DNA from: an uncultured Microbacterium sp.
Lineage (GTDB): Bacteria > Actinomycetota > Actinomycetes > Actinomycetales > Microbacteriaceae
Assembly (NCBI GenBank): GCA_913774665.1
Contig: CAJYHN010000010.1
Coordinates: forward strand, 434,001-498,000
DNA: 64,000 bases
Direction of reading: 5' to 3'
Shown: in pieces, positions 16,674 through 61,285 of the stretch
Layout: each line of letters opens with the position of its first letter
How positions within the stretch are numbered: position 1 is the first letter of the stretch
Translations under genes and position numbers: made by a program
The notes under the pieces: model-generated
What the model saw: only the letters and a program-made list of their open reading frames with translations
What the model was told of the DNA's origin: nothing
The model's database searches: none

Positions 16674-16705
16674 GTAGCGTGCGCGAAACACGCCCCGATT
16701 ACGGT
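16674..16705 (+). promoter_or_regulatory. GlnR-type box and leaderless promoter of the xdhC operon
   Basis: GTAGC-n6-GAAAC (16674-16689; one mismatch to GTnAC) is followed after exactly 10 bp by the -10 hexamer TACGGT (16700-16705). The ATG at 16713 is 7 nt after the -10, so the transcript is probably leaderless. Confidence 0.65.
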
Positions 16706-16712
16706 CGCATCC

Positions 16713-17678
16713 ATGCTCGAACTGGCCCCCGACCTGGTGCCGCTGCTGGACGCGGGCGTCCCCGTGGCGGCCGTCACGGTCACGGCGGTCGTGCGCAGTG
16801 CCCCCCGCGGCGTGGGCGCGACCCTCGCCGTCACGAGGGATGCGCGGGTGATCGGATCGATCTCGGGCGGCTGCGTCGAGAGCGACGCGGTCATGCTCGG
16901 TCTCGACGCGCTGCGCACGGGCACCGTGCGCCGAGCGCGCTTCGGTTTCGGCGACGATGACGCGATCGCGCCGATCGCCGCCGGGCTCGCGTGCGGCGGG
17001 GCCGTCGACGTCGTCGCCTACCGGGTCGACCCCGCGCACCGCGATGCGCTCGTCGCGGCGCGAGACGGTCGCGAGGCGTCGCTTCGCCTCGAGCTCGACG
17101 GCGAGCCGCTGGTGCTCCACCGGCCCGCTCCCCCGCGGCTGGTCATCCTCGGCGCGGGGGAGCACGCGGCCGCCCTCTGCCGGCTGGGAGCCGCCGCCGG
17201 TTTCGCGGTGACCGTCTGCGACGACTGGGCGCTCCTGGTGACCCGCGACCGCTTCCCCGACGCGGCCGAGCTGGTCGTCGGCACACCCCACGAGGTCCTC
17301 GAGGCCCTCCCCTCCCCCGACGCCCGCACGGCCGTGTGCGTGCTCACCCATGACGAGCGTCTCGACGTCCCCGCGATCCGCGCGGCCCTGCGGCTCCCGG
17401 TGGGCTTCGTCGGCGCGATGGGAGCGCGCGCCACGGTCTCGCGCCGCGCGGCCCTGCTCCGCTCCGCCGGAGTGACGGATGCCGAGCTCTCGCGCCTGCA
17501 CTCCCCTCTGGGTCTCGACCTCGGGGGCCGCTCCCCCGAGGAGACGGCTCTGTCGGTGATCGCCGAGATCGTGGCATCCCGGAACGCCGCCGACGCTCGA
17601 CCGCTGCGCGAGGCCGCCGGACCCCGCCTGCACGCGATCACGAGTGGCGGAGACTCCTGCGCGGTGAGGAGCGCATGA
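16713..17678 (+). CDS. xdhC: XdhC/CoxI family protein, molybdenum hydroxylase maturation
   Basis: XdhC-like protein, 321 residues, which in other bacteria binds molybdenum cofactor and inserts it, after sulfuration, into xanthine dehydrogenase. The N-terminal domain has SAPRGVGATLAVT and GSISGGCVESDAV near residue 55; the C-terminal Rossmann-like part has RLVILGAGEHAAAL near residue 145 and GFVGAMGARATVSRR. No Shine-Dalgarno is visible; a -10 element 7 nt before the ATG suggests a leaderless message. The stop overlaps the next ATG by 4 bp. Confidence 0.88.
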   Translation: MLELAPDLVPLLDAGVPVAAVTVTAVVRSAPRGVGATLAVTRDARVIGSISGGCVESDAVMLGLDALRTGTVRRARFGFGDDDAIAPIAAGLACGGAVDVVAYRVDPAHRDALVAARDGREASLRLELDGEPLVLHRPAPPRLVILGAGEHAAALCRLGAAAGFAVTVCDDWALLVTRDRFPDAAELVVGTPHEVLEALPSPDARTAVCVLTHDERLDVPAIRAALRLPVGFVGAMGARATVSRRAALLRSAGVTDAELSRLHSPLGLDLGGRSPEETALSVIAEIVASRNAADARPLREAAGPRLHAITSGGDSCAVRSA

Positions 17679-18973
17679 GCGTCACCATCGTCCGCGGCGC
17701 GATCGCGGTGGTCGACGGCTCCGGACGCATCCACGCGGGAGACGTCACGATCGCCGACGGGGTCGTCGTCGAGAGCGCGGACACCACGGACGCCGAGATC
17801 ATCGACGCCACCGGCTGCGTCGTCACGCCCGGATTGGTCAATGCCCACCACCACCTGCTGCAGACCGCCTTCCGCACGCTGCCGGGCACGCGCGGCATCC
17901 CGATGCGCGAATGGCTTCCCGCCATGGCGGCGGCCTACACCGAGGCGGGGGTCGACCCTGAACTGACCGGTCTCGCCGCCCGGGCGGGTCTCGCCGAAGC
18001 GCTGCTGTGCGGGGTGACCACCGTCGCCGACCACCACCTGACCTGGCCGGCCGACGCCGACACCGTCGGGATGGCCCGCGCGGCGGCGACCGCCGCGGCC
18101 GATCTCGGCGCGCGACTCGTCTTCGTGCGCGGCGCGGCGCGCGACGACCCGCAGACCGCGGCGGCGTCGGCCGCGGCCATCGTCTCGGCCCTCGTCCCGG
18201 ATCGCGCGGGCGGTGTCTCGGTCGACGGAATGCTGCAGGTCGCCGTGGGACCGGCCGGCGTGCACAGCGACCCGCGCGAGACGTTCGCCCTGCTCGGAGA
18301 GGTGGCCCAGCGCCACAGCCTGCGCCGACGCACGCAGGCCAACGAGGTGGTGGACGTCGAGATCGCGCTCGAGCGGTACGGCAGGCGCCCCCTCGATCTG
18401 CTCGAGGACTGGGGGTGGCTCGCCCCCGACGTGACCCTCGCCCACCTGTGCGACGTGTCCGACGACGAGATCGCGCGCGTCGCGGCATCCGGGGCCACCG
18501 CCACCCATGCTCCCGGGTGCGACGTGCCCATGGGCTGGGGTGTCGCGCCGGTGCGGCGCCTGCTCGACGCGGGTATCGCCGTCGGCCTCGGTACCAGCGG
18601 CGGGGGCAGCAACGACGCGGGGCACCTGCTCGCGGACGCGCGCCTCGCCCTGCAGGTGTCGGCGCTGGCCGGGCCGCAGCTGCCGGCATCCGAGGTTCTG
18701 ACGATGGCGACCGCCGGATCCGCCGACGGGCTCGGGCGCCCCGAGCTCGGACGACTGACCCCCGGGTCGGCGGCGGACCTCTGCCTGTGGGACGTCTCCG
18801 GTGTTGCCGACGCCGGCGTGGCCGACCCCGTGGCGGGGCTGCTGTGGGCCGCACCCGGCCGACGTCCGCGGACCGTCCTCGTGGCCGGACACGTCGTCGT
18901 CGACCAGGGCCGGCTGATCCGCGCCGACGAACGCGAGGTCGTCGCCCGATTGTTCGAGAGGGTGAAACGATGA
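17675..18973 (+). CDS. Amidohydrolase, purine/8-oxoguanine deaminase-like
   Basis: Metal-dependent deaminase of the amidohydrolase superfamily, subtype III, 432 residues. The metal site starts with LVNAHHHLLQTAF near residue 58; further ligands are in TQANEVVDVEIALE region, THAPGCDVPMGWG and LGTSGGGSNDAGHLL near residue 308. The NAHHHLLQ and late SND pattern resembles 8-oxoguanine deaminases and related s-triazine and purine deaminases. Notably the residue pattern around the second metal ligand (RTQANEV rather than H-x-E) deviates from the family, so activity should be tested. In an operon with xdhC it probably deaminates a purine base. Confidence 0.8.
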   Translation: MSVTIVRGAIAVVDGSGRIHAGDVTIADGVVVESADTTDAEIIDATGCVVTPGLVNAHHHLLQTAFRTLPGTRGIPMREWLPAMAAAYTEAGVDPELTGLAARAGLAEALLCGVTTVADHHLTWPADADTVGMARAAATAAADLGARLVFVRGAARDDPQTAAASAAAIVSALVPDRAGGVSVDGMLQVAVGPAGVHSDPRETFALLGEVAQRHSLRRRTQANEVVDVEIALERYGRRPLDLLEDWGWLAPDVTLAHLCDVSDDEIARVAASGATATHAPGCDVPMGWGVAPVRRLLDAGIAVGLGTSGGGSNDAGHLLADARLALQVSALAGPQLPASEVLTMATAGSADGLGRPELGRLTPGSAADLCLWDVSGVADAGVADPVAGLLWAAPGRRPRTVLVAGHVVVDQGRLIRADEREVVARLFERVKR

Positions 18974-19596
18974 CCACCATGGCCCCCGTGATGGATACCC
19001 CCAGCAGCGACGAACGCTTGGGCGCGCACCTGCGGGGGCTGCGCAAGGCGCGCGGGCTGACCCTCACCCAACTCGCCGAGGCCGCCACCCTGTCGCACCC
19101 CTTCCTCAGCCAATTGGAGCGTGGTCTCGCGCGCCCGAGCATGGCGAGCCTGGAACGCCTCGCCCGGGCGCTGGGCACCAGCCGTGTCGAGCTGCTCGCG
19201 GGGTCGGAGCCGCCGCGCGCCGACCACGACGCCGAGCCCTCGTTCGTGGCCGCCGGCGAGGGGGTCATCGGCCCCTACGCCGAGGGAACCGCCCGGCTGC
19301 TGGCCGAGGGCCTGCGGCGGTTCGAGCCCCTCGAGTTCACGGGGTCGAATGCGACCCCTGGCGATCACTACGTCCACGACGAGGACGAGTTCCTGACGGT
19401 CCTCGAGGGCACGATCGTCATCTCCTTCGGCGGCTTCGGCGAGCGCACCCTGCGGGTCGGCGACTCGGTGTACTGCCGGTCGGGCACACCGCACCGCTGG
19501 CACTCGCCCGACGGCTCCGTGTACCGGTTGCTCATCGTGAAAGAGCTCGTGCGCGGCGGCGGCGCCGACGACGCGGTCGAACAGGAGGACACGTGA
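18970..19596 (+). CDS. XRE-family regulator with C-terminal cupin
   Basis: Regulator of 208 residues. Residues 18-72 form the helix-turn-helix (LRGLRKARGLTLTQLAEAAT, LSHPFLSQLERG), and residues 125-195 form a cupin with HDEDEFLTVLEGTIVI and VGDSVYCRSGTPHRWHSP. This class usually senses small acids or amines and controls its neighbouring genes. It overlaps the deaminase before it and the reductase after it (ATGA and GTGA), so it is co-transcribed with what it presumably controls. Confidence 0.85.
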   Translation: MTTMAPVMDTPSSDERLGAHLRGLRKARGLTLTQLAEAATLSHPFLSQLERGLARPSMASLERLARALGTSRVELLAGSEPPRADHDAEPSFVAAGEGVIGPYAEGTARLLAEGLRRFEPLEFTGSNATPGDHYVHDEDEFLTVLEGTIVISFGGFGERTLRVGDSVYCRSGTPHRWHSPDGSVYRLLIVKELVRGGGADDAVEQEDT

Positions 19597-20540
19597 GTGC
19601 GGGAATGACATTCAACGCGGTTGTCCGAGAGCGACGGGATGCCGCGGACGGCGTCGTCGTGCTCGAGCTCGAGCGGGCGACCGGGACCCTGCCGCACTGG
19701 TCGCCCGGAGCGCACATCGACGTCGTCCTGCCCGGCGGGATCGAACGGCAGTACTCGCTCTGCGGCTCGCCGACCGAACGCGGGACCTGGCGCATCGGCG
19801 TCCTGCGCGAGCGCGAGGGATCGGTCTGGCTGCACGAGAACGCCCACGTCGGGTCGACTCTGCGCGTGCGCGGCCCCGCGAACCACTTCCTGTTCGCGCC
19901 CACCGCGGGACGGTCGTACGTGTTCGTCGCCGGGGGGATCGGCATCACGCCGATCGTGCCGATGATCGAGGCCGCCGAGGCCGCGGGCTCCGAGTGGACC
20001 CTGCTCTACGTCGGGCGGTCGCGCTCCACCATGGCCTTCGTCGACGAGCTCGAGGCGCAGTACGGCTCCCGCGTCGAGGTGTTCGCGGCCGACGAGGGGC
20101 GGCGGCTCGATCTGTCCGCCCGCCTCGGCACACCGGTGGCTCGCACGGTCGTCTACGCGTGCGGACCCGCCCGTCTTCTCGAGGCCCTGGATGCCACGAT
20201 GTCGGTCTGGCCGCGCGGAAGCCTGCACGTCGAGCGGTTCGAGGCGAAAGTGCTCGGCCCGCCCGTCTGGACCGAGCCGTTCGAGGTCGACCTCATGATG
20301 TCGGGGCTGACGGTGACGGTGCCGCCCGAGCGATCGGTGCTCGACGTCATCGAGGAACACGGGATCGTCGTTCCCTCGAGCTGCCGCGTGGGCACGTGCG
20401 GCACCTGCGAGGTCTCCGTGATCGACGGCGACATCGAGCACCGGGATTCGGTGCTCTCCCCCGAGGAGCAGGATGCCAACCGCTCGATGATGCCGTGCGT
20501 CTCGCGCGCCGCCTGCCCGCGGATCACGCTCGAGCTGTGA
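19593..20540 (+). CDS. PDR/VanB-type oxygenase reductase (FMN, NADH, 2Fe-2S)
   Basis: Electron-transfer protein of the phthalate dioxygenase reductase family, 315 residues. Flavin-binding RQYSLCGSP near residue 50, nucleotide-binding FVAGGIGITPIVPMI near residue 110, and a C-terminal plant-type 2Fe-2S ferredoxin domain with CRVGTCGTCEV near residue 266 and a fourth cysteine in MMPCVSRA. Start GTG 19593 has AGGAGGA upstream. Such reductases normally feed a Rieske oxygenase, but none is encoded here, so its partner is elsewhere or it serves a different acceptor in purine breakdown. Confidence 0.88.
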   Translation: MSAGMTFNAVVRERRDAADGVVVLELERATGTLPHWSPGAHIDVVLPGGIERQYSLCGSPTERGTWRIGVLREREGSVWLHENAHVGSTLRVRGPANHFLFAPTAGRSYVFVAGGIGITPIVPMIEAAEAAGSEWTLLYVGRSRSTMAFVDELEAQYGSRVEVFAADEGRRLDLSARLGTPVARTVVYACGPARLLEALDATMSVWPRGSLHVERFEAKVLGPPVWTEPFEVDLMMSGLTVTVPPERSVLDVIEEHGIVVPSSCRVGTCGTCEVSVIDGDIEHRDSVLSPEEQDANRSMMPCVSRAACPRITLEL

Positions 20541-20644
20541 TCGCTTCGCGAACGAGTGCGTTCTGCACCGTTCGCACACGGGGAACTCCGCGGTCGTCGT
20601 CGTCCATGCCGGTCATCGCCGAGAAGTCGACGAGGGGAGCGTGC

Positions 20645-21973
20645 TCAGCATCCGCCCGCCTCGTTCTCGTCGCCTGAGGTCCGCCCCGCGGAGGCCGCGA
20701 CCGGAGGAGCCCAGACGGCCGCGACCAGGAGCGGGACGGCGAGCAGCAGCCAGGCCGCGGCCGGGACCGCGGCCCAACCGAGCAGCGCGCCGACCGCGAC
20801 GTTGCCCATGAGCACGGCTACGCCGCCGCACGTCGAGAGCAGACCGAAGAACGATCCGGTCGGCAGCATCGAGGCGAACCGCGGGACGAGTCCCTGCGCC
20901 GTGGGGTTGGTCGTCAGGTGGCCGACGACGACGAGCCCCGCGGCGACGAACACGGCCACCACGCGCCCCGAGGCCTCGAGCGGAACGACGACGCTCGCGG
21001 CGACCACGACGAATCCGGCAGACGAGAGCCCGTACCCCGCCCGCAAGGCCCGGGCTGCGCCCACACGGTGGCACCAGCGCGACACCGGCAGCTGCAGCAC
21101 GAGCGTGAGCGCCGAGACCCACGCGAACATCGCCGCGACCACGCCCGGGCCCGCGTCGGCGCGCGCGAGCTGAAGGGGAAGCGCGAGGTAGAGCTGATTG
21201 AAGGCCAGCAGGTCCGCGGCGTGCAGGGCCGAGAAGGCCACGAACCGCCGGTCGCGGAGCGACCACCAGCGTCCGTGGACTCCCCGCGCCGTCGCCGCGG
21301 GCGTCCGACGCGGCAGAGCGACGGCGAGGAACACGGCGATCAGCACGAAGAGGGCGGCCCCGGCCAGAGCCACCACGACGAACCCCCACCCGAGCAGAGC
21401 GGCACCGAGCAGCGGGCCGAGCACCGCGCCGAACTCGCCCGCGACGCTCAACCACGCGAACAGCGAGGCGCGGGACCTCGCACCCGCGGGGGCACGGCGC
21501 TGCTCGGCATCCGCCACGAGGATGTTGACCCCCGGCGAGAAGAGGGCGCCGCCGAGACCGGTGAGCACGGTCCCCCCGATGAAGAGGGCGAGCTGCGGGG
21601 TCGGCGCGAGCAGCGACAGGGCGAGCGTGGCGAAGCCGAGCACGCGCACCGCGCACCCCGCGAGGATCGTCCGCCGTGCGCCGAAGCGGTCGGCGAGCAC
21701 CCCGCCGACCAGGAACATGCCCTGCTGAGCGAAGGTGCGCACCCCCAGGATCAGACCGATCGCGGCGGCGGCCAGCCCGAAGTCATCGGTGAGCACCAGC
21801 GCGAGGAACGGGACGACGGCGAAGAAGCCCACGTTGAACAGCAGCTGGGTCCCCAGCAGCACCGGCGTGCGGGCCGGACGGGGCGGGGTGGGAATGACGG
21901 GCACGGCGATCTCCGGGGGTGGGGGCGGTGACCGCCCGGACGATCCTGTCACTTCCGCGGGCGCGCTCGTCAC
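20645..21973 (-). CDS. MFS transporter
   Basis: Major facilitator protein, 442 residues, with twelve hydrophobic segments. The first half shows the loop 2-3 motif as GGVLADRFGARRTILAG near residue 88. The N-terminal 35 residues are Pro-rich and probably disordered. It resembles drug-efflux-type MFS proteins, but the cargo cannot be read. It is transcribed away from the deaminase gene, and its 5' region holds a perfect 10-bp inverted repeat that may be its operator. Confidence 0.8.
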   Translation of the reverse strand: MTSAPAEVTGSSGRSPPPPPEIAVPVIPTPPRPARTPVLLGTQLLFNVGFFAVVPFLALVLTDDFGLAAAAIGLILGVRTFAQQGMFLVGGVLADRFGARRTILAGCAVRVLGFATLALSLLAPTPQLALFIGGTVLTGLGGALFSPGVNILVADAEQRRAPAGARSRASLFAWLSVAGEFGAVLGPLLGAALLGWGFVVVALAGAALFVLIAVFLAVALPRRTPAATARGVHGRWWSLRDRRFVAFSALHAADLLAFNQLYLALPLQLARADAGPGVVAAMFAWVSALTLVLQLPVSRWCHRVGAARALRAGYGLSSAGFVVVAASVVVPLEASGRVVAVFVAAGLVVVGHLTTNPTAQGLVPRFASMLPTGSFFGLLSTCGGVAVLMGNVAVGALLGWAAVPAAAWLLLAVPLLVAAVWAPPVAASAGRTSGDENEAGGC

Positions 21974-22034
21974 GCGGGGCGGCGGTGGTCGCGGTGCGGG
22001 AACGGCGGCGACGCGAACAGGAGAGGCGACGAGA

Positions 22035-22063
22035 ACAGGCTGATCGGGCGAAAATCAGCCTGT
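22035..22063. promoter_or_regulatory. Inverted repeat in the divergent region before the MFS gene
   Basis: ACAGGCTGAT (22035-22044) and ATCAGCCTGT (22054-22063) form a perfect 10-bp palindrome with a 9-bp spacer, 62 bp before the MFS start codon. It looks like an operator for a dimeric repressor, regulator unknown. Confidence 0.5.
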
Positions 22064-22079
22064 CGACGGATGCCACCGC

Positions 22080-22090
22080 CTGTCCGACAA
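22080..22090. promoter_or_regulatory. Palindromic operator, TTGTCnGACAA type, copy 3
   Basis: CTGTCCGACAA matches the palindrome found twice before the allA-like gene, and it lies 14 bp before the GlnR-type box of the deaminase promoter. The same regulator may act on both loci. Confidence 0.55.
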
Positions 22091-22103
22091 CTTTGTCGAG
22101 AGG

Positions 22104-22146
22104 GTCACGCGGGGGAAATACAGCGGAAACGCGCGATTCCTAGCAT
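22104..22146 (+). promoter_or_regulatory. Three-part GlnR-type box and -10 of the deaminase-ABC operon
   Basis: GTCAC-n6-GAAAT-n6-GAAAC (22104-22130) keeps the 11-bp half-site period of GlnR sites. Ten base pairs after the last half is the -10 hexamer TAGCAT (22141-22146). A 7-bp hairpin (22162-22178) lies in the roughly 110-nt leader before the GTG. Confidence 0.7.
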
Positions 22147-22262
22147 CGGACCATCGCCGGATGTTGGTCACACCAACACTGACGCCGCCGCCACAAGCGG
22201 CTCGGCCCCGCTGATGTGGCTTCCGTCTCGCGCTTGTCTTCCCGACTTCTCCGGAGGCCCTC

Positions 22263-23513: not shown

Positions 23514-23540
23514 CCACCCGAACGGAAAGCGAGCGCCCCC

Positions 23541-25204: not shown

Positions 25205-25324
25205 CCCGGCCCACCGACCTCCGGATGCCACGCCCTCCGCTCGCGCCACAGCGCGGGTGGCGGTGTCCGGCGTACCCGAAAACCCCGCACCCGAGAGCTC
25301 CACCGTCACAGAAAGCGAATCAGC

Positions 25325-26500
25325 ATGCAGCGCTCCACCCTCCTTCGCGGCACCGCCGTCACCGGCGCCGTCGCGATCGCCCTCACCCTCAGCTCCTGCG
25401 CCGGCAGCGCGGCGGAGACCGCTCCCTCGGCCGACCTGAAGATCGGTTCCGTCGACCTCTCGGCCGACTGCCCCTCGACGGTCGTCATCCAGACGGATTG
25501 GAACCCCGAGGCCGAGCACGGTCACCTCTACGAGATGATCAAGGACGACTACACGGTCGACGCCAACACCAAGTCCGTGACCGGCCCGCTCATGTCGGAC
25601 GGCGAGTACACGGGCGTCAACCTCGAGATCCGCGCCGGTGGGCCCGCTATCGGCTTCCAGACGGTCTCGGCCCAGATGTACCAGGACGACAAGATCACCC
25701 TCGGCTACGTCAGCACCGACGAGGCGATCCAGCTCTCGAGCACCACCCCGACCAAGGCCGTGTTCGCCCCGCTCGACATCAGCCCGACGATGGTCATGTG
25801 GGACCCGGCCACCTACCCCGACGTCCAGAAGATCCAGGACATCAAACCCGCACTCGAGAAGAACAAGGGCGTGTGGCGCTACTTCGACGGGTCGGCCTAC
25901 ATCGAGTACCTCAAGAGCGCCGGTCTCGCCTCGTCGGACGTCCTCGACGGGTCGTACGACGGCACGCCGTCGAACTTCGTCGCTGCCGGCGGTAAGGACA
26001 TGCAGCAGGGCTTCGCCTCGGCCGAGCCGTACGTCTACCAGAACGAGGTCTCGGCCTGGGGCAAGCCGGTGAAGTTCGCCCTCATCCACGATGCGGGATG
26101 GCAGACCTACCAGTCGTCGGTGTCGGTCAAGGCCGACAAGTTCGACGAGCTCTCGCCGTGCCTGTCGAAGCTCGTCCCGGTGCTGCAGAAGGCGGGCGTC
26201 GCGTACTACAAGGACCCGAAGGCGGCGAACGACCTGATCCTCAAGCTCGTCGACGAGTACGCCACCGGCTGGACCTACACGCAGGGCGTCGCGGACTACT
26301 CCGTCAAGACGCAGAAGGAGCTCGGCCTGGTCGGCGACGGCCCCGACTCGACCTATGGCAACTTCGACGACAGCCGCTTCGCGGACTTCTTCACCAAGGC
26401 GAGCAAGGTCTACACCGACCTGGGCACCCCGCCCGCGTCGGGCTACACCGCGTCCGATCTCTACACGAACCAGTTCATCGACAAGAGCATCTCGTTCTGA
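25325..26500 (+). CDS. NMT1/THI5-like ABC substrate-binding lipoprotein
   Basis: Substrate-binding protein, 391 residues. Signal peptide with lipobox LSSC (cysteine near residue 25), then a mature protein with VVIQTDWNPEAEHGHLYEMI, the W-x-PEAEH-G motif of NMT1/THI5-like proteins that bind pyrimidines and related rings. It completes the ATPase-permease pair upstream, 120 bp away. An aromatic nitrogen heterocycle is the likely ligand. A GC hairpin follows the stop. Confidence 0.88.
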   Translation: MQRSTLLRGTAVTGAVAIALTLSSCAGSAAETAPSADLKIGSVDLSADCPSTVVIQTDWNPEAEHGHLYEMIKDDYTVDANTKSVTGPLMSDGEYTGVNLEIRAGGPAIGFQTVSAQMYQDDKITLGYVSTDEAIQLSSTTPTKAVFAPLDISPTMVMWDPATYPDVQKIQDIKPALEKNKGVWRYFDGSAYIEYLKSAGLASSDVLDGSYDGTPSNFVAAGGKDMQQGFASAEPYVYQNEVSAWGKPVKFALIHDAGWQTYQSSVSVKADKFDELSPCLSKLVPVLQKAGVAYYKDPKAANDLILKLVDEYATGWTYTQGVADYSVKTQKELGLVGDGPDSTYGNFDDSRFADFFTKASKVYTDLGTPPASGYTASDLYTNQFIDKSISF

Positions 26501-26506
26501 CCGACC

Positions 26507-31789: not shown

Positions 31790-33166
31790 CTACAGGATGA
31801 CGCCGAACTCCTCCGCCAGCGCCGGCAGCTGAGAGTGCAGCACCGCCGACGCCTCGACGGCGAGCGGATTCGTCGAGACGCCGTTCTCGTTCACCAGTTT
31901 GCCGCCGACGTACACCCGCTGCAGGTTGCGCAGACCGCAGGCGAGCACGTAGCTGCGTACGGGGTTCCACAGGGGTCCGACGTCGGGCGTGCGCGGGTCG
32001 ACGACGACGAAGTCGGCGAACTTGCCCACCTCGAGGCTGCCGACGCGGTCGTCGACGCCCATGATCTCTGCTCCCCCGAGGGTGTGCAGGCGCAGGACCC
32101 GTTCGGGCATCATCGACAGCGGGTCGTGGGTGCGGGCACGCTGCATGAACATGCCCATGCGCATGTTCTGCCATGGGTCGGCGACGTCGGTGCAGGCCTG
32201 GTCGTCGAGGCCCATGCCGACCTTCATGCCCTGCTCGAGCATCTCGGGCACGTGGGCGATCCCGGACGCCAGACGCCCGTTCGACGCGGGCTGCCACGAC
32301 ATGCTGGCGCCGCCGGCAGCGGCATCCGCGATGATCTCCGGCGTCGTCTGGATGAAGTGGCCGAACATCATGCCGGGGCGCAGGGCTCCGGCGTTCTTGT
32401 AGAGCTGGAACTTCGTCTGCTGGTGCTCGATCGCCTCGTAGGTCTCGAGGAAGTGCGCCTGGTTGGTCACACCGAAGCGGTCCATGACCGCGACCTCGAT
32501 CTCGGCGGCATCCGGCCGGGTCGACCACTGGACCTGGCCCATGATCGAAGCGCCGAGGGCGATGTCGGGGTCCATCGCGAGCACGTGATCGAGGGATGCC
32601 TCGAACCGCGCGAAGATCTCTTCGTCGGTGCCGACGGTGGCATCCAGGGCGATCGAGTCGACGAAACGGAGCCCGGCGTCGTGGCATCCGTCGGCCTGTC
32701 GGGTGTGCCAGGCGTGATCGCGCAGGATGCCGCCGCCGTCGGCACGCTTGCCCTCGACCATCGGTTCCCAGGGCAGGAGCGGGTCGGTGAAGTTGTACGC
32801 GGTGGTCACGCCGTTGGCGAGGAAGTCGAGCGAGCCGTGCAGCGTCGCCCAGTAGATCTGGTCGGGCGAGGCGTTGTTGAGCACGCTGAACATCGAGGTG
32901 CACCAACCGTAGAGCGTCTGGTCGACGCCGAGTCCGCGCGAACCGCTCGTGAAGAGGTGGCTGTGGCTCGACACGAAGCCGGGCGCCACGAACTTGCCGT
33001 CGACGTCGAGGATCTCGTCGGCGGTGACGCCCGGACCGGGGTCGCCGGCGCCGATCGCGGCGATGCGGCCGTCGCGCACGAGCATGTACCCGCGTTCGAT
33101 GTAGCCGGGGTCGTCGGTGCCCGCGGGGACGGTGATGAGACGTGCGTTCGTGACCAGGAGCGACAT
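31790..33166 (-). CDS. Amidohydrolase, AtzA/TrzN/SAH-deaminase-like
   Basis: Metal-dependent deaminase or chlorohydrolase-like amidohydrolase, 458 residues. Metal ligands: VSSHSHLFTSG near residue 70, NQAHFLETYEAIEHQ near residue 248, FGHFIQTTPEII near residue 279 and the aspartate in GMGLDDQACTDVAD near residue 332. The C-terminal LEVGKFADFVVVDPRT closes the small beta domain. ATG 33166 lies 7 nt after a TACCGT -10 element and lacks a Shine-Dalgarno, so the message is probably leaderless. With a GlnR-type box in front, it likely releases ammonia from a nitrogen heterocycle. Confidence 0.85.
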   Translation of the reverse strand: MSLLVTNARLITVPAGTDDPGYIERGYMLVRDGRIAAIGAGDPGPGVTADEILDVDGKFVAPGFVSSHSHLFTSGSRGLGVDQTLYGWCTSMFSVLNNASPDQIYWATLHGSLDFLANGVTTAYNFTDPLLPWEPMVEGKRADGGGILRDHAWHTRQADGCHDAGLRFVDSIALDATVGTDEEIFARFEASLDHVLAMDPDIALGASIMGQVQWSTRPDAAEIEVAVMDRFGVTNQAHFLETYEAIEHQQTKFQLYKNAGALRPGMMFGHFIQTTPEIIADAAAGGASMSWQPASNGRLASGIAHVPEMLEQGMKVGMGLDDQACTDVADPWQNMRMGMFMQRARTHDPLSMMPERVLRLHTLGGAEIMGVDDRVGSLEVGKFADFVVVDPRTPDVGPLWNPVRSYVLACGLRNLQRVYVGGKLVNENGVSTNPLAVEASAVLHSQLPALAEEFGVIL

Positions 33167-33173
33167 GTTGATG

Positions 33174-33205
33174 ACGGTAACAATGGCGTGTTTCCGCGGT
33201 GTTCC
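33174..33205 (-). promoter_or_regulatory. GlnR-type box and leaderless promoter of the amidohydrolase
   Basis: On the minus strand: GGAAC-n6-GAAAC (33205-33190; one mismatch to GTnAC), exactly 10 bp, TACCGT (-10), 7 bp, ATG. Confidence 0.65.
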
Positions 33206-41846: not shown

Positions 41847-41862
41847 GTTACGCCGCGGAAAC
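41847..41862 (+). promoter_or_regulatory. GlnR-type box between esterase and PPOX-like genes
   Basis: GTTAC-n6-GAAAC, a perfect consensus match, oriented toward the PPOX-like gene 34 bp away. No clear -10 follows on that side; on the other side the esterase -10 TACGCT is 39 bp off. Confidence 0.6.
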
Positions 41863-41895
41863 ACGGGCGTCTCGCGGCCCTCGCACCATGGCGGC

Positions 41896-42447: not shown

Positions 42448-42501
42448 GTTACTCCGCCGAAACAGCGCCGTCGCCGCCGCGTTCAACGCCGGGCGTACGG
42501 T
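42448..42501 (+). promoter_or_regulatory. GlnR-type box and -10 of the SDR gene
   Basis: Perfect GTTAC-n6-GAAAC at 42448-42463, then 32 bp, then TACGGT (42496-42501). The 32-bp spacing is two helical turns more than the 10 bp seen at other sites. Confidence 0.6.
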
Positions 42502-44429: not shown

Positions 44430-44499
44430 AGTGTAGGGAGCGCGTGTTTCGGCGAATGTTCATGGCGGCAACATCGCCGAAACGCGCCGTCCCTACGCT
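44430..44499. promoter_or_regulatory. Bidirectional promoter with mirror GlnR-type boxes
   Basis: A perfect 10-bp inverted repeat GTTTCGGCGA (44446-44455) / TCGCCGAAAC (44474-44483) presents a GAAAC half outward on both sides. Each is followed after exactly 10 bp by a -10 hexamer: TACACT on the minus strand (44435-44430) and TACGCT on the plus strand (44494-44499). Confidence 0.7.
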
Positions 44500-48893: not shown

Positions 48894-48903
48894 GCTGACC
48901 GCC

Positions 48904-52411: not shown

Positions 52412-52573
52412 TCGCTCGGGACTGCTACGGGCCGGGGAGGTGGGACATCAGGACTCCCTGGGACTGGGACGGGTGGGACGGGGACGGGTGGGACGGGGGC
52501 GGGTGGGACGGGGGCGGGTGGCCGTGAGACGGGGGCGGGTGGGACGACTCGGTGGGGGCGGCGAAGCGAGCCA

Positions 52574-52647
52574 AACTCCTGAAGATGCGGCTGCGGATGC
52601 CGCCAGCACCGGCGCAGCGGCCTCTTCGCCCCGGAATCTCAGGAGTT
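52574..52647. repeat. Inverted-repeat element, family B, copy 3 (74 bp)
   Basis: Same ends and length as copy 2, part of the duplicated block. Confidence 0.85.
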
Positions 52648-52748
52648 TCGCTCGGGATGGCGAGCTGTCGCGGGTCGCGGAGGCCCGCGCCCGGTCGCGG
52701 GGCCTCCCGCGCCCGGTCGCGGAGCGTCCCGCGGCCGGGGGCGGGCCG

Positions 52749-52822
52749 AACTCCTGAAGAACCGGCGACAGATGCCACCTCGGGCACGGAGATCGCCCGC
52801 GCGGGGGAGAAAGTCAGGAGTT
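52749..52822. repeat. Inverted-repeat element, family B, copy 4 (74 bp)
   Basis: Same ends and length but a different core, so it did not arise by the recent duplication. Together with copies 2-3 it fills the gene-free gap 52249-52852. Confidence 0.85.
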
Positions 52823-52852
52823 TCGCGCGGCCCGACGCCGGGACGACGCGGC

Positions 52853-54442: not shown

Positions 54443-54624
54443 GATCTGCGCCCCTCTCCACGCGGCGTCGAGTGTCCGAGAAACCCGGACAGCGTCGAGA
54501 ACCGCCCGGGTGTTTTGGACTCTCGACGGGGAGGGGCGGCATCGCGGGCGCACGGGGAGGCGTCGCCGGCCAGCGCGGCGTCGGCCTCCGCACGAGCCAG
54601 GGCGGCGGCGAGGACGGGGCTCAT
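54439..54624 (-). CDS. Small translationally coupled ORF (61 residues) between formamidase and amidase genes
   Basis: Its ATG (54624) overlaps the formamidase-like TGA and its TGA overlaps the amidase ATG, both as ATGA, which is strong evidence for translation. The first 28 residues (MSPVLAAALARAEADAALAG...) have normal GC3 codon use and look helical. The second half uses rare codons (AAA, ACA, TTT, AGA) and overlaps a small inverted repeat, so it may be eroding or lie over a promoter. It sits where hpxX/atzG would be, but no AtzG-like motif is seen. No function assigned. Confidence 0.45.
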   Translation of the reverse strand: MSPVLAAALARAEADAALAGDASPCARDAAPPRRESKTPGRFSTLSGFLGHSTPRGEGRRS

Positions 54625-55847: not shown

Positions 55848-55849
55848 GC

Positions 55850-57184
55850 TCACGCCTCCACCACCGCGGCCGCGCGCAGCAGCTCGCGGCCCTCGCGCTC
55901 GGTGACCGCGGCTCCGCGCCGGTAGACGGACTGCCCGCGGAGCCACGTCTCGCGGACGACGCCGGTGAGGGTCTGGCCGTGCCAGGGAGACACCGGATTT
56001 CGGTACTCGAGAGCCGCGGCATCCACCGTGAACTGCTCGTCAGGGGCGAAGGCCACCAGGTGTGCCGGAGCCCCCACCTCGATCACGCCGAGCCCCTCGA
56101 GCCCCGCGACGCGAGCGGGGCCGGTGGTCATCAGGGGCAGCAGCGACTCGAACGCGAGGCCCCTCTCGCGGGCCGTCGAGTGGATCGCCGAAAGACCGGT
56201 CTGCAGCCCCGCGATTCCGCCCCACGCGAGGCCGAAGTCGGGATGACCCTTCAGCTCGACGGTCGCGGGCGAGTGGTCGCTGACGATCGCATCGATCGTT
56301 CCGTCGACGACCCCGGCCCACAGCAGGTCGCGGTTGTCTCCCCCGCGGATCGGCGGGCAGCACTTGAACGCCCCCGCGCCGTCGGGCACCGCCGAGGCGT
56401 CGAGGGTCAGGTAGTGCGGGCACGTCTCGACCGTGAGGCGGACCCCCTCGGCCTTGGCCGCGCGCACCGCGTCGAGCGCTCCCCCGTCGGACACGTGGAC
56501 GATGTGCGCGCGAGCGCCCGTGCGACGGGCGGTGTCGATGACCCGTTCGATCGCGGCGCGCTCGCTCAGCGGCGGACGACTGGCCTCGAAGTCGCGGTAG
56601 CGCGGGCCGAGCGCACCGTCGGCGTGCAGATGGGCCGGGTCTTCAGCGTGCACGATGAGCAGTCCGTCGAACTCCGCTAGCTCGGCGAGACACCGCTCGA
56701 GCTGCTCGGCGTCGAGGTGGCCGAATTCGTCGATCCCGCTCGGCGACAGGAAGCACTTGAAGCCCACGACCCCGGCATCCGCCAGGGCGCGCAGTGAACC
56801 GAGGTTCTCGGGCACGGCGCCGCCCCAGTAGGCGACGTCGACAGCGAGCTTTCCCACGGCGGCCCGGCGCTTGGCATCCAGAGCCTCGACGCTGGTCGTG
56901 ACCGGGAGGCTGTTCAGGGGCATGTCGACGACCGTCGTGACGCCGCCCGCAGCCGCCGCGGCGGTGCCGGTCGCGAAGCCCTCCCACTCGGTGCGGCCGG
57001 GTTCGTCGAGGTGCACGTGCGAGTCGACGAGGCCCGGCAGCAGCACGGCGTCGGCGGGCAGGACGGTGTCGGCGGCGACGTCGAACGCCTCGATCCCCGC
57101 GATGAGTCCGTCGTCGATCACGACCGTGGCGGGGGTGAATGCGCCGTCGATGAAGACGCGGCGGGCGGCGATCCGTGTGCTCAT
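55850..57184 (-). CDS. allB: Allantoinase
   Basis: Cyclic amidohydrolase, 444 residues, that opens allantoin to allantoate. Metal site: GLVDSHVHLDEPGRTEWEGF near residue 52, carboxylated lysine in GVVGFKCFLSPSG near residue 140, HAEDPAHL near residue 178, ARAHIVHVSDG near residue 230 and the aspartate in IVSDHSPATVELK near residue 305. DEPGRTEWEGF is characteristic of allantoinase over dihydropyrimidinase. ATG 57184 is 7 nt after the -10 TAGCGT: a leaderless start is likely. Formamidase follows with overlap. Confidence 0.92.
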   Translation of the reverse strand: MSTRIAARRVFIDGAFTPATVVIDDGLIAGIEAFDVAADTVLPADAVLLPGLVDSHVHLDEPGRTEWEGFATGTAAAAAGGVTTVVDMPLNSLPVTTSVEALDAKRRAAVGKLAVDVAYWGGAVPENLGSLRALADAGVVGFKCFLSPSGIDEFGHLDAEQLERCLAELAEFDGLLIVHAEDPAHLHADGALGPRYRDFEASRPPLSERAAIERVIDTARRTGARAHIVHVSDGGALDAVRAAKAEGVRLTVETCPHYLTLDASAVPDGAGAFKCCPPIRGGDNRDLLWAGVVDGTIDAIVSDHSPATVELKGHPDFGLAWGGIAGLQTGLSAIHSTARERGLAFESLLPLMTTGPARVAGLEGLGVIEVGAPAHLVAFAPDEQFTVDAAALEYRNPVSPWHGQTLTGVVRETWLRGQSVYRRGAAVTEREGRELLRAAAVVEA

Positions 57185-57191
57185 GCGGCTC

Positions 57192-57223
57192 ACGCTAAAG
57201 GCCCCGCGTTTCGCGAATGTAAC
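57192..57223 (-). promoter_or_regulatory. GlnR-type box and leaderless promoter of the allantoinase operon
   Basis: On the minus strand: perfect GTTAC-n6-GAAAC (57223-57208), exactly 10 bp, TAGCGT (-10), 7 bp, ATG. The -10-to-ATG segment closely matches that of the OHCU decarboxylase gene. Confidence 0.75.
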
Positions 57224-57235
57224 CGTCATCAACAT

Positions 57236-58174
57236 TCATGCGAACGCCTCGGCGGGCGTCTCCGCGCGGGGCGGGGCGAGCGGCCCCGGGGCGCCGGGAG
57301 TGGCCCCGGGTCCACCGACGACCACCCGCGACGAGGGGCGATGCGCATTCGACGCCCCCAGGTCAGGAACGAGCGGGGCAGCCGAAGCGCCATGCCCGGC
57401 CAACACCCCGGGGCCATGAGCCACCAGCGATGACGAGGCACCCTGCCCGTCCTCCGCCCCGCCCCGACCCGCGACCTCCCGCGGCGGTCGCGCGTACTCG
57501 TCGCGTTTGCTCGTGCCCAGGCCCATGCGCACCATTCCGGATGCCATGCCCACCGCGGCCGCGACCCCGTCGACGACCGGCACCCCGACGCGTGCCGCGA
57601 GCTCGGCGCACAGGTCGGCCATGCCCGCGCAGCCGAGCACGATGACGTCGGCGCCCGAGGCCGCGGCATCCATGCTCAGCTCGGCGATGGTGGTGACGGC
57701 GGCGGATGCCGTGTCCTCGAGGTCCAGGACGGGAATACCCGTCGCCGCGAGCGACACGCACGCCCGCTCCATGCCGTACCGCGCGACGAGATCGTGCGCT
57801 CGCCCGAGCGTGCGGCTGAGCGTCGTGACCACCCCGAAGTGCCGTCCCGACACCACCGCCAGGTGCATCGCCGCCTCGGCGATCCCCACCACGGGTGCCT
57901 CGACCAGCTCGCGCGCCGCGTCGAGCCCCGGGTCGCCGAAGCAGGCGACGACGTATGCATCTGCCGGGTCGGGGCTGTCACGATCTGCCGCGATCAGCTC
58001 GACCACGGCCGCGGCCGCCGCGATCTCATCGAGGTGGCTCTCGATCGCGGAGGCACCGACCGAGGGGCACACGGCCGTGATCTCGACGTCGGGTCCCGCC
58101 ACCCCCCGGGCGGCGTCCGTGATCTTCGCGGTCATCGCCCGGGAGGTGTTGGGGTTGACGAGCAGGATCCTCAC
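57236..58174 (-). CDS. Asp/Glu/hydantoin racemase family, probable allantoin racemase, with extended C-terminus
   Basis: Racemase of the HyuE/HpxA family, 312 residues. MRILLVNPNTSRAMTAKI opens it; the two catalytic cysteines are in VVACFGDPGLDA near residue 77 and VLGCAGMADLC near residue 182. Relatives stop near residue 240; here about 70 Gly/Ala/Pro-rich residues follow, encoded by CCCCGGGG-rich sequence like the tandem repeats elsewhere. Overlap with the permease stop (GTGA) shows coupling. Next to allantoinase and a permease, interconversion of R- and S-allantoin is the likely job. Confidence 0.85.
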   Translation of the reverse strand: MRILLVNPNTSRAMTAKITDAARGVAGPDVEITAVCPSVGASAIESHLDEIAAAAAVVELIAADRDSPDPADAYVVACFGDPGLDAARELVEAPVVGIAEAAMHLAVVSGRHFGVVTTLSRTLGRAHDLVARYGMERACVSLAATGIPVLDLEDTASAAVTTIAELSMDAAASGADVIVLGCAGMADLCAELAARVGVPVVDGVAAAVGMASGMVRMGLGTSKRDEYARPPREVAGRGGAEDGQGASSSLVAHGPGVLAGHGASAAPLVPDLGASNAHRPSSRVVVGGPGATPGAPGPLAPPRAETPAEAFA

Positions 58175-59844
58175 GCGAGCGCCTCGCGAGCGGTCGCACC
58201 GGGGGCCGCGGCATCCGGAACCGTGTTCGCGACGACGGCGACCGGGGCCGAGACGGCGGACGGCTCGGATGCCGGAGTCGCGGCCGCCCCGTCGATCGTG
58301 CCGTCGGAGATGCCCTCGGTCTCACCCTCGAAGGTCGGCACGCGCGGGTCGAGGCGCTCGAAGAGAAGGAACAGCGCGTAGCCGAGGCCGCACCCGATGA
58401 ACCAGCTGTAGTCGCTGACCCACGAGACGTTGAACAGACCCAGGTCGGCGAAGAGCTTCGGGAAGACCGCGATGAGCACGGTCGGAACCCCCGCGGCGAC
58501 GACGGCCTTGACCGCGTTCGGGTTGAAACCGTTGCGGTACCAGTAGGGCCCGGCGGCATCCATCGTGAACATCGCATCGACCTTCACCCGCTGACGCGCG
58601 GCGGAGTAGTACCCGGCGATCAGGATGCCGAAGAGGGGCCCGATCAGCGCCCCCAGCACGCCCAGCGAGTAGTGGATGGCGTCGCTGTTGGAGTACCAGT
58701 TCCACGGCATGAGGAAGGTCGAGCCGACAGCGGCGATCATTCCGCCCGCGCGCCACGAGATCTTCTTCGGGGCGACGTTGGAGAAATCGAAGGCCGGTGA
58801 GATGAAGTTGGCGACGATGTTGATGCCGACCGTGGCGGTGACGAAGGTGAGCCCGCCCAGCAGGATCGCGAAGGGCGTGTCGATCTGCTCGACCGTCTTG
58901 ATCGGGTCGGTGATGAGCGAGCCGAAGACCGGGACGGTGGCCGACGCCGTGATGACGGTGAGCAGCGAGAAGAACACGAAGTTGACGGGCAGTCCCCAGA
59001 AGTTGCCCTTCTTCACCGCGGCGAAGCTCTTGCCGTAGCGGGCGAAGTCGCCGAAATTCAGCATCGGGCCCGAGAAGTACGACACCACGAGCGCGATCGC
59101 CGCGAACATCACGGGGATCGAGGCCCAGAAGTCGAGCTGCACCGTCGACAGGGTGAACGAGATGTTCTGGATGCCGGCCTGAGACACGAGGTACACGGCG
59201 AGCACGATCATGACGAGGTAGACGGCGGGGCCTGCCCAGTCGATGAAGCGGCGGATGACCTCCATGCCGTTCCAGAACAGCAGGAACTGCGCGGTCCACA
59301 GGATGCCGTACGAGACCCACCCGAGGGCAGAGAGCCCCGCGAACGACATGTCGAGCAGAGCAGCCGAACCCGGGATGAACTTGAGGAACACGATGTTCAG
59401 CGACTCCGCCGCGAGGAAGGTCTGCACCCCGTACCAGGCGATCGCGATGAGCCCGCGGATGATCGCGGGGATGTTCGCGCCCCGGATGCCGAAGACCACG
59501 CGGTTGATGACCGGGAAGGGCACACCCGTCTTCTGGCTGGGCTTGGCGACCATGTTGGCGAAGACCTGCACGATGACGATGCCGGCGATCAGCGCCACGA
59601 GCACCTGCCACGACTGCAGGCCCAGGGCGAAGAGCGAACCGGCGGTGACGTAGCCGCCGACCGAGTGCACGTCGCTCATCCAGAACGCGAAGATGTTGTA
59701 GCTCGACCACTTCTGCTTGCGCAGCGGGGCGAGGTCCTCGTTGGCGAGGCGGTCGTCGTATTGCGGCTTCATGTTGCCGCCCCCGTGGGGGTGGCCGGCG
59801 GCCTCCACGAGATCGTGGGGACCGGTGAGCGGGGTGGAAGTCAT
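58171..59844 (-). CDS. NCS1-family permease, probably for allantoin
   Basis: Nucleobase:cation symporter-1 protein, 557 residues, twelve hydrophobic segments. The conserved start NEDLAPLRKQKWSSYNIFAFWMSDVHSVGGY-type region is at residues 34-65, with LAPL...W and the following W-x2-D-x-HS typical of allantoin/uracil/hydantoin permeases (PucI, Mhp1). The C-terminal 60 residues are hydrophilic. ATG 59844 has GAGAGGA upstream. First gene of the permease-racemase unit, under both a GlnR-type box and the XRE-cupin operators. Confidence 0.9.
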   Translation of the reverse strand: MTSTPLTGPHDLVEAAGHPHGGGNMKPQYDDRLANEDLAPLRKQKWSSYNIFAFWMSDVHSVGGYVTAGSLFALGLQSWQVLVALIAGIVIVQVFANMVAKPSQKTGVPFPVINRVVFGIRGANIPAIIRGLIAIAWYGVQTFLAAESLNIVFLKFIPGSAALLDMSFAGLSALGWVSYGILWTAQFLLFWNGMEVIRRFIDWAGPAVYLVMIVLAVYLVSQAGIQNISFTLSTVQLDFWASIPVMFAAIALVVSYFSGPMLNFGDFARYGKSFAAVKKGNFWGLPVNFVFFSLLTVITASATVPVFGSLITDPIKTVEQIDTPFAILLGGLTFVTATVGINIVANFISPAFDFSNVAPKKISWRAGGMIAAVGSTFLMPWNWYSNSDAIHYSLGVLGALIGPLFGILIAGYYSAARQRVKVDAMFTMDAAGPYWYRNGFNPNAVKAVVAAGVPTVLIAVFPKLFADLGLFNVSWVSDYSWFIGCGLGYALFLLFERLDPRVPTFEGETEGISDGTIDGAAATPASEPSAVSAPVAVVANTVPDAAAPGATAREALA

Positions 59845-59906
59845 GTCATTCCTCTCAGGACGATGGATGCCACGACGTGGAGTCCGCGGCCGGAGTGGAG
59901 CTCTGA

Positions 59907-59926
59907 TGTGAAGTTATGGGTTCACA
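59907..59926. promoter_or_regulatory. XRE-type operator 1, over the permease -10
   Basis: TGTGAA-n8-TTCACA, a perfect 6-bp inverted repeat that covers the -10 of the permease gene. Same form as operator 2, centres 52 bp apart (five helical turns). Confidence 0.7.
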
Positions 59927-59953
59927 CACCCGCCGCCGTTTCGCTCATGTAAC
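59911..59953 (-). promoter_or_regulatory. GlnR-type box and -10 of the allantoin permease operon
   Basis: Minus strand: perfect GTTAC-n6-GAAAC (59953-59938), 21 bp, TAACTT (59916-59911). The 21-bp gap is one helical turn more than 10. The box is framed by TTCACACACC (59921-59930) and GGTGTGTGAA (59955-59964). Confidence 0.7.
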
Positions 59954-59958
59954 AGGTG

Positions 59959-59978
59959 TGTGAAGTCGCTCCTTCACA
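59959..59978. promoter_or_regulatory. XRE-type operator 2, before the XRE-cupin gene
   Basis: TGTGAA-n8-TTCACA, ending 13 bp before the -10 TAGACT (59992-59997) of the regulator gene, i.e. over its -35. Fits autoregulation. Confidence 0.7.
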
Positions 59979-60003
59979 TCGATCGCCTCCCTAGACTCGG
60001 GGA

Positions 60004-60660
60004 ATGCCGCAGCCGCCCCTCGCCGAAGACGTCCATCCGGACGACGCCGCGGTGACCGGCTCCGCGCCCGAGGGCATCGCGACGGCTGAGCCCTCGGCAT
60101 CCGTCGGCGCACGCATCCGCCACCTGCGGCAGGCGCGCGGCATCTCGGCCCGGGCGCTCGCGAAGACGCTGGGAATCTCCCCGAGCGCCGTCTCGCAGAT
60201 CGAGCGCGGCGTCATGCAGCCGAGCGTCTCGCGCTTGATCGCCATCACCGACGCCCTCGGCGTGCCGCTCGTGGCGGCTTTCGATCCGGCATCCGACCGC
60301 CCCGCTCCCGCCGTCGGCCCCTCGGGCTTCACGCTGCAGCGCGCCGGACAGTCGCCCGACATCGTCCTCGACAGCGGGGTGTCGTTCCGTCGGCTCACCC
60401 CCGGCACCTCGCCCGGCGTCGACTACTTCGAGTCGATCTACCCGCCGGGGGCTGCGGCTCACGGCGCGGACGGGCTCTTCCACCACGAGGGCTACGAGGT
60501 GGGCACGGTCGTCTCGGGAGAGCTGACCATCGATTTCGAGGCCGAGCGCGTGATCCTGCGCGCGGGAGACGCCATCAGCTACCCGTGCTCAGTCCCCCAC
60601 CGCCTGCACAACACGGGGTCGACGGATGCCGTCGCGCACTGGCTGATCGTGCACTCCTGA
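60004..60660 (+). CDS. XRE-family regulator with C-terminal cupin, probable local regulator of allantoin genes
   Basis: 218 residues. Helix-turn-helix at residues 33-90 (IRHLRQARGISARALAKTLG, ISPSAVSQIERGVMQPSVSR), cupin at 140-215 (GLFHHEGYEVGTVVSGELTI, LRAGDAISYPCSVPHRLHN). The ATG lies 6 nt after the -10 TAGACT with no ribosome site, so it is probably leaderless. Divergent from the permease gene, with two identical-form palindromes between. It most likely represses both genes and responds to a ureide. Confidence 0.88.
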   Translation: MPQPPLAEDVHPDDAAVTGSAPEGIATAEPSASVGARIRHLRQARGISARALAKTLGISPSAVSQIERGVMQPSVSRLIAITDALGVPLVAAFDPASDRPAPAVGPSGFTLQRAGQSPDIVLDSGVSFRRLTPGTSPGVDYFESIYPPGAAAHGADGLFHHEGYEVGTVVSGELTIDFEAERVILRAGDAISYPCSVPHRLHNTGSTDAVAHWLIVHS

Positions 60661-60710
60661 CGCGGGCGCCCGGCCCGCGCGCCGTCGACGCGGGGGCCGG
60701 CGTGGGCATG

Positions 60711-61105
60711 GGGCCGGTTTCGACGCCTCGGGGCCTGTTTCTCGACGCCGCGGGGGCCGGTTTCGACGCCCGGGGGGCCGGTTTCGACACCTTGGGGCCT
60801 TTCGCTCGACACCGCGGGGCACTTCCCGACGCCCCGGGGCACTTTCCGACGCCCCGGGGCCGGTTTCGACGCCCCGGCGCCGGTTTTGACACCTTGGGGC
60901 CCCTATCTCGACGCCGCGGGGCAGTTTTCGACGCCTCGGGGCCACTTCCGACGCCCCGGGGCCACTTCCGACGCCCCGGCGCCGGTTTCGACACCCTGGG
61001 GCCGGTTTCGACACCCTGGGGCCCCTACCTCGACGCCGCGGGGCAGTTCTCGACGCCCCGGGGCCACTTCCGACGCCCCGGGGCCACTTCCGACGCCCCG
61101 GAGCC
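60711..61105. repeat. GC-rich short tandem repeat, about 20 units of GACGCCCCGGGGCC(A/G)
   Basis: Units of 17-31 bp alternate between ...GGTTTCGACGCC... and ...CACTTCCGACGCC.... Larger blocks repeat too: 60890-61000 and 61015-61105 are nearly the same. The gene-free gap is 60661-61292; frames through it encode only repeats. Confidence 0.85.
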
Positions 61106-61232
61106 TCGATTGCGCCGGCGCCGGCTTCTCTCCGCACTGGGCGTCGCGAGTACAGGCGCCGACACGAGAACAGGGCGAACTCGTCGCATCCCCCGTTCTC
61201 GCGACGAATCACCGACCCGAATGTTCCCGACA

Positions 61233-61285
61233 GCAACATCGCCGACACATCGCGCCACAGCCCCGTAACGCGGTCGGCCTAGCGT
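61233..61285 (+). promoter_or_regulatory. Weak GlnR-type box and promoter of the urate-to-allantoin operon
   Basis: GCAAC-n6-GACAC (two mismatches) lies 31 bp before the -10 TAGCGT (61280-61285). The sequence from -10 to ATG, TAGCGTGAGTGGCATG, almost equals that of allantoinase. Confidence 0.5.

Follow-up and report, generated by a model that had tools for sequence, protein, structure and literature searches.

How a bacterium decides when to draw nitrogen from purines, and how many regulators share in that decision, is the question raised by a stretch of 64,000 nucleotides from an uncultured Microbacterium sp. (assembly GCA_913774665.1, contig CAJYHN010000010.1, forward-strand positions 434,001 to 498,000). 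This whole stretch, here called the window and numbered from its first letter, lies inside contig C10 of a 3.58 Mb genome in 14 contigs and is, by its predicted gene content, a purine- and ureide-scavenging region. An earlier reading of the DNA (the original prediction) had placed ten of its transcription units in one nitrogen-scavenging regulon under GlnR, on the strength of GTNAC-N6-GAAAC-like boxes held at a fixed distance from a -10 hexamer, TANNNT. From the sequence we conclude that these are very probably GlnR-driven purine and ureide promoters, with half-sites every 11 bp and the last one 10 bp before the -10, and that five of them carry in addition a conserved palindrome, probably the operator of a second regulator.

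The predicted spacing is confirmed in the sequence. The two strands of the window hold 43 copies of GAAAC, and at distances of 5-35 bp there are eight pairs of GAAAC and TANNNT: six at 10 bp (a distance written here as n10), one at 21 and one at 32, which is 10 + 11k, with no other spacing in that range. The six n10 cases are exactly as predicted, with GAAAC at 16685, 22126, 33194(-), 44450-44446(-), 44479-44483 and 57212(-) followed by TACGGT, TAGCAT, TACCGT, TACACT, TACGCT and TAGCGT, respectively. The distances of 21 bp for the permease and 32 bp for the SDR gene were likewise correctly given, and arise because GlnR half-sites repeat every 11 bp. The 31 bp assigned to the OHCU decarboxylase gene belongs instead to GACAC (61244); a nearer GCCAC-n6-GTAAC (61254-61269) lies 10 bp before TAGCGT, so that this promoter too fits n10, with GTAAC as its half-site. 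Shuffled sequence does not reproduce the pattern: the six GAAAC-N10-TANNNT matches compare with a mean of 0.027 in 300 dinucleotide shuffles, in none of which did the best of 31 spacings reach six. When 15 promoters are scored for half-sites in 11-bp head-to-tail register, the mean is 2.48 against 0.53-1.37 at ten other offsets, a score biased upward by the partial choice of these promoters for their box, and with one of them (L107) out of register. With the first T of TANNNT at -12, n10 places GTNAC at -38..-34 and GAAAC at -27..-23.

The boxes themselves are present before all ten units, although their quality is mixed, from none to three mismatches. They are exact at 41847, 42448, 57208(-) and 59938(-), carry one mismatch at 16674, 22104, 33190(-) and 44468, two at 61254 and three at 44461(-). 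At up to one mismatch the window contains 13 boxes against 5.74 +- 2.40 in shuffles (none of 100 reached 13), of which three are intragenic (24193, 29377 and 46290) and one lies between two convergent gene ends (43279). The strict combination GTNAC-N6-GAAAC-N10-TANNNT, proposed as a genome-wide search, has a single match and was set aside as too strict, because the half-sites are degenerate.

The geometry is also retained in relatives, the closest being Microbacterium (among the 80 allantoinases listed, the nearest are 84-95% identical, several from genomes named M. testaceum). With the half-site written as G[A/T]AA[C/T], and the start codon of allantoinase set 5-9 bp after the -10, n10 is found in 27 of 80 allantoinase loci (any pair in 29, n11 in one and n21 in eight), in 24 of 28 amidohydrolase loci drawn from 99 genomes of the genus at E <= 1e-100, with no other spacing, and in 18 of 18 deaminase loci, 17 of which also show n21; these loci are related and the counts are not independent. 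More distant amidohydrolase promoters (71-74% protein identity; L180-L182 and L184-L186) have GTGAC-n6-GAAAC-n10-TAGCGT before the ATG, with TAACGT in L182, and keep this pattern though the palindrome described below is absent, and two distant deaminases (54-56% identity; L203 and L204) retain n10. The xdhC promoter block persists in all 10 regions fetched, the divergent promoters around 44456 in all five relatives examined (with GAAAT for GAAAC on the right side in two), and the OHCU and permease boxes in the close relatives listed. Ten regions were fetched for the SDR and PNPOx promoters, which could be traced in just one of them; the PNPOx box at 41847 was kept in one and the other nine gave no match.

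A genome lacking any GlnR homologue would be difficult to reconcile with such a regulon, but a GlnR-type protein is encoded (L002, contig C1 of genome G000, about 260.3-261.0 kb). It combines a GlnR-like receiver with an OmpR-type DNA-binding domain, and its best phmmer matches in the PDB are 8hih (6.1e-76), which we take to be a GlnR chain, and 8hig (1.5e-71); the Asp of its VDAR aligns to 8hih, and the receiver aligns further to 4o1i and to 4o1h (E 4.7e-24), named GlnR by its depositors. From these best matches we infer that it is orthologous to GlnR. The genome contains 23 exact GTNAC-N6-GAAAC boxes, five of them in the window, which is 1.8% of the genome. One stands upstream of the only ammonium-transporter match (amtB, C2:248274-) and another upstream of a glutamine-synthetase match, one of three in the genome (glnA, C2:286797+). 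In 11-bp steps the glnA promoter reads GTAAC-GAAAC-GATAT-GACAC, followed after 10 bp by TAGGGT; that of amtB reads GTAAC-GAAAC-CGAAC-GGAAC, followed after 10 bp by AACACT.

Searched genome-wide, GAAAC-N6..14-TANNNT occurs 40 times against 31 in a reversed control, a total not far above that control, and the signal therefore resides in the spacing, not in the count: for spacings 6 to 14 the tally is 6, 5, 5, 0, 13, 3, 1, 4 and 3, and six of the 13 at n10 are those of the window. Outside it, an n10 GAAAC precedes a nirB-like gene, an M1 peptidase gene and a gene for a family-3 solute-binding protein, and an exact box stands at n11 before a CN-hydrolase gene. No good GTNAC was seen 11 bp upstream of the n10 GAAAC of the nirB-like gene. 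Two broader counts were not used as evidence: boxes at up to one mismatch (323 against 62 in the reversed control), since the reversed pattern differs in codon bias, and leaderless GNAAC...TANNNT...ATG arrangements (56 against 24), most of which have other spacings.

The new feature here is the 19-bp palindrome ATGTT-N9-AACAT. The genome has just two exact copies, at 44456 and 61221 of the window; at up to one mismatch there are ten places, five of them in the window, against one in the reversed control. Each of these five (22161, 33165, 44456, 57217 and 61221) lies at one of the predicted promoters, and at allantoinase, OHCU and 44456 the palindrome overlaps the upstream GlnR half-site. In the window alone, the excess at up to two mismatches is modest (6 against 1.95; 1 of 100 shuffles with at least six). 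The palindrome is conserved in 17 of 18 deaminase regions (16 with one mismatch, one exact), in 18 of 28 amidohydrolase regions with one mismatch and, at up to one mismatch, in 26 of the 39 allantoinase upstream regions taken from the 80 loci, a set from which most of the more distant ones were omitted; random 122-bp stretches of the window contain it at that threshold in 16 of 2000 cases. In an Agromyces locus (L064) the allantoinase gene has a GlnR box at n11, and the palindrome lies over the -10 of that gene. Among ten stretches around further copies, exact ones precede hpxO (two), xanthine-dehydrogenase-like genes (two) and a deaminase gene (one), two of the remaining five are the allantoinase and OHCU copies, and three are without purine genes of the window's kinds nearby. 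We take the palindrome to be an operator for a regulator specific to this pathway, and it is the feature most worth an experiment. Exact copies are found in 48 of the 99 genomes; bare ATGTT-N9-AACAT is not specific, because ROK-family genes (L124, L137, L151 and L153) carry similar palindromes of their own, of ATGTTGTG or ACAACAT type.

In the mechanism that we propose, GlnR half-sites (GNNAC or GAAAC) stand head to tail every 11 bp, the gene-proximal one ending 10 bp before the -10; when nitrogen is scarce, GlnR would occupy the -35 region and bring in RNA polymerase. The palindrome, which covers part of the box, part of the -10 or sequence directly downstream of the -10, would most simply bind a repressor that is released by a signal derived from purines; expression would then need both nitrogen shortage and the substrate. 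We infer GlnR binding, the direction of control, the contact with RNA polymerase and the nature of the second regulator from the arrangement of these elements. The proposal of a single GlnR regulon is well supported at the sequence level by the protein, the spacing, the box at amtB and glnA and the n10 element of the nirB-like gene, but it is incomplete: since a second conserved element, which had been overlooked, is present at five of the promoters, GlnR is probably not their sole regulator.

Several observations weigh against this reading. Outside the window n10 accounts for 7 of 34 matches, with 27 over the eight other spacings, a weak excess alone, and three of those seven, for six of which the gene was scanned, stand near GNAT, alpha-amylase-family and NUDIX genes with no clear nitrogen link. 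Beyond the window there are 18 exact boxes, of which only about five (amtB, glnA, L100, L107 and L118) have a -10-like element in place, and most of the others are in or beside coding sequence; TAGGGT of glnA and AACACT of amtB, the latter not a TANNNT, were picked at n32 after the box had been seen. Half-sites beyond the nearest two are weak at several promoters, 51 of the 80 allantoinase loci have no pair in the frame used (in part because the start positions used are approximate), and some relatives use n11. Reverse-complement controls show n10 in 3 of 80 allantoinase, 4 of 28 amidohydrolase and none of the deaminase regions; some of these matches may be true divergent promoters. As to the palindrome, of 30 exact genus loci fetched, 9 are by purine genes, 4 by ROK genes and 1 by a sugar-transport gene, and 16 adjoin nothing like a window gene. 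That the spacing itself is a chance pattern of GC-rich DNA nevertheless has next to no probability. The genome total near its reversed control (40 against 31) would suit it, but 0 of 300 shuffles match the window, and n10 is kept in 27/80, 24/28 and 18/18 orthologous loci; chance is already contradicted by this conservation. It is very improbable that another OmpR-family regulator, PhoP or another of the 13 OmpR-type (Trans_reg_C, PF00486) proteins found in the genome, owns the 11-bp repeats: proteins of this type generally bind direct repeats, but the half-site GNNAC/GAAAC is that published for GlnR, and the same box stands at amtB and glnA.

A simpler alternative is that GlnR alone explains everything, the palindrome being inverted GlnR half-sites such as would be expected at divergent GlnR promoters. 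Its AACAT does share GTAAC or GCAAC with the box at allB, OHCU and 44456, and some relatives have allB and OHCU in divergent orientation with one palindrome common to both. Yet the palindromes of the deaminase and amidohydrolase genes, which lie downstream of the -10 or on it and so apart from the box, are conserved all the same, and the boxes of glnA and amtB have no copy at up to one mismatch; we therefore consider this alternative unlikely. A second regulator is preferred, and for its identity a helix-turn-helix (HTH)-cupin gene of the window, XRE1, whose product has HTH_3/HTH_31 and Cupin_2 domains by family scan, is a plausible candidate, with the chances leaning somewhat against it. As a special case of the preferred reading, it would bind the palindrome and repress the purine genes until an inducer is present. 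Homologues occur in 29 of the 99 genomes, including all 12 with a verified palindrome beside a purine gene, and in genome G043 an exact palindrome separates the deaminase gene from the XRE1 homologue. Co-occurrence was rejected as proof of binding: it is uninformative here because 11 of the same 12 genomes also have the amidohydrolase. Moreover, the palindrome at up to one mismatch lies just upstream in 1 of 30 homologue loci (that of G043), leaving 29 without it, and in close relatives the gene lies inside an operon. More tentative again is the broader view of a two-key class of Microbacteriaceae promoter, in which an n10 GlnR array before mostly leaderless genes is gated by a dedicated HTH-cupin repressor, and the position of the 19-bp operator, over a GlnR half-site, the -10 or the start codon, would set the logic of each gene; this we regard as rather doubtful.

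Table 1. Promoters, palindromes and regulator genes of the window (nN, distance in bp from half-site to -10 hexamer).
Feature	Position	Strand	Details
Further exact GlnR box	6582..6597	-	reverse orientation; just upstream of ureidoglycolate-lyase-domain open reading frame (6621-7175 +)
xdhC-like promoter	16663..16705	+	GTCAC-n6-GTAGC-n6-GAAAC, n10, TACGGT; ATG 16713, predicted leaderless
HTH-cupin regulator XRE1	18973..19596	+	candidate binder of second element (basis: co-occurrence only)
Deaminase promoter	22104..22146	+	GTCAC-n6-GAAAT-n6-GAAAC, n10, TAGCAT
Second element, deaminase	22161..22179		1 mismatch; downstream of -10
Second element, amidohydrolase	33165..33183		1 mismatch; overlaps -10 and start codon
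Amidohydrolase promoter	33174..33205	-	GGAAC-n6-GAAAC, n10, TACCGT; ATG 33166, predicted leaderless
Exact GlnR box, small PNPOx-domain gene	41847..41889	+	weak -10-like CACCAT at n21; ATG 41896
SDR promoter	42448..42501	+	GTTAC-GAAAC-GTCGC-GTTCA, 11-bp steps, n10, TACGGT; GAAAC at n32
Divergent promoter, left	44430..44461	-	weak half-site GAACA-n6-GAAAC, n10, TACACT; ATG 44423
Second element, divergent pair	44456..44474		exact; between two divergent GlnR boxes
Divergent promoter, right	44468..44499	+	GCAAC-n6-GAAAC, n10, TACGCT
Allantoinase promoter	57192..57223	-	GTTAC-n6-GAAAC, n10, TAGCGT; ATG 57184, predicted leaderless
Second element, allantoinase	57217..57235		1 mismatch; overlaps GTTAC half of box
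Different palindrome TGTGAACCCATAACTTCACA	59907..59926		TGTGAA-N8-TTCACA; over permease -10
Allantoin-type permease promoter	59911..59964	-	TTCAC-GTTAC-GAAAC, 11-bp steps; GAAAC n21 from TAACTT
Palindrome GTGAAGGAGCGACTTCAC	59960..59977		over upstream GlnR half-site of permease
Second HTH-cupin regulator	60004..60660	+	divergent from allantoin-type permease
Second element, OHCU decarboxylase	61221..61239		exact; upstream of gene
OHCU promoter	61233..61285	+	GCAAC-n6-GACAC-n5-GCCAC-n6-GTAAC, n10, TAGCGT; ATG 61293, predicted leaderless

Family scans of the window proteins indicate a route from purine to ammonia. It comprises an XdhC-like protein, xanthine-dehydrogenase-like genes, the urate hydroxylase HpxO, hydroxyisourate hydrolase, OHCU decarboxylase, allantoinase, allantoate amidohydrolase, an aminotransferase and a ureidoglycolate-lyase domain; an AtzE/HpxZ-like amidase, an Asp/Glu/hydantoin racemase and an NCS1 allantoin-type permease are also present, together with deaminase-like amidohydrolases that score below the curated cut-offs. 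The left gene of the divergent pair encodes a protein with a short MTHFR-C-terminal-like match, and the right promoter precedes a PNPOx-domain gene and xanthine-dehydrogenase-like genes. At least five starts are predicted to be leaderless (xdhC-like, amidohydrolase, MTHFR-like, allantoinase and OHCU). The permease promoter carries palindromes of another kind, of which TGTGAACCCATAACTTCACA recurs, slightly altered, in the close relatives listed, with similar palindromes in several distant ones; TGTGAACCCATAACTTCACA and GTGAAGGAGCGACTTCAC may be operators belonging to the neighbouring HTH-cupin gene (60004). The exact box at 6582-6597, absent from the original prediction, sits between a GntR gene and the ureidoglycolate-lyase-domain frame. 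A 391-residue open reading frame (25325-26500) gave no Pfam match at E 1e-5, and a 52% identical relative lies near deaminase and ABC genes in G043 (L209). The OHCU promoters of three relatives (L035, L039 and L042) have GAAAC at n11, not n10. Elsewhere in the genome, a 2OG-Fe(II) oxygenase gene (L100, G000:C2:109602) is preceded by GTGAC-GAAAC-GTGAC-n10-TAGCGT with a mirrored GTTTCCGCACCGTCGC arm adjoining, and the nirB-like gene (L111, G000:C8:80825-80845) has GAAAC-n10-TAGCGT and a predicted leaderless start.

Taken together, these data would bring purine and ureide scavenging in Microbacterium under a known nitrogen regulator; among the titles listed by searches pairing GlnR with the genus, the family or purine genes, none concerns GlnR in Microbacterium, and no paper on XRE-family cupin regulators of purine catabolism was found either. 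What is gained is an exact geometry, in which 10 bp separate the -10 from the nearest half-site, and a second element brought to light at purine-catabolic promoters. The excerpts of PMC10936776 contain nothing further on GlnR geometry. In excerpted accounts of Mycobacterium smegmatis, the direct targets of GlnR include amtB, xanthine/uracil permeases, allantoin-type permeases and a putative allantoicase (PMC3662644), and because GlnR is already known to govern genes for purines and allantoin in that species, the regulon of the window is largely expected in kind. The two have in common an AC-n9-AC motif, purine and allantoin genes among the known or predicted targets and the possibility of divergent genes, whereas in M. 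smegmatis site position is reported not to correlate with expression level and in the window one exact -10 distance recurs, along with a second palindrome (PMC3662644). The a-b-a-b consensus of Streptomyces coelicolor, and a structure in which four GlnR domains are arranged head to tail, share with the window 5-bp half-sites, 6-bp spacers and up to four sites head to tail; the excerpted review gives no fixed -10 distance, unlike the window (PMC10704036). In M. tuberculosis, as excerpted, GlnR sites at -37 (glnA1) and -30 (glnA2) are close to the -38..-23 that n10 implies here, but binding midpoints fall between -75 and +10 for 18 of 28 genes with no single spacing, where that of the window is fixed (PMC4950008).

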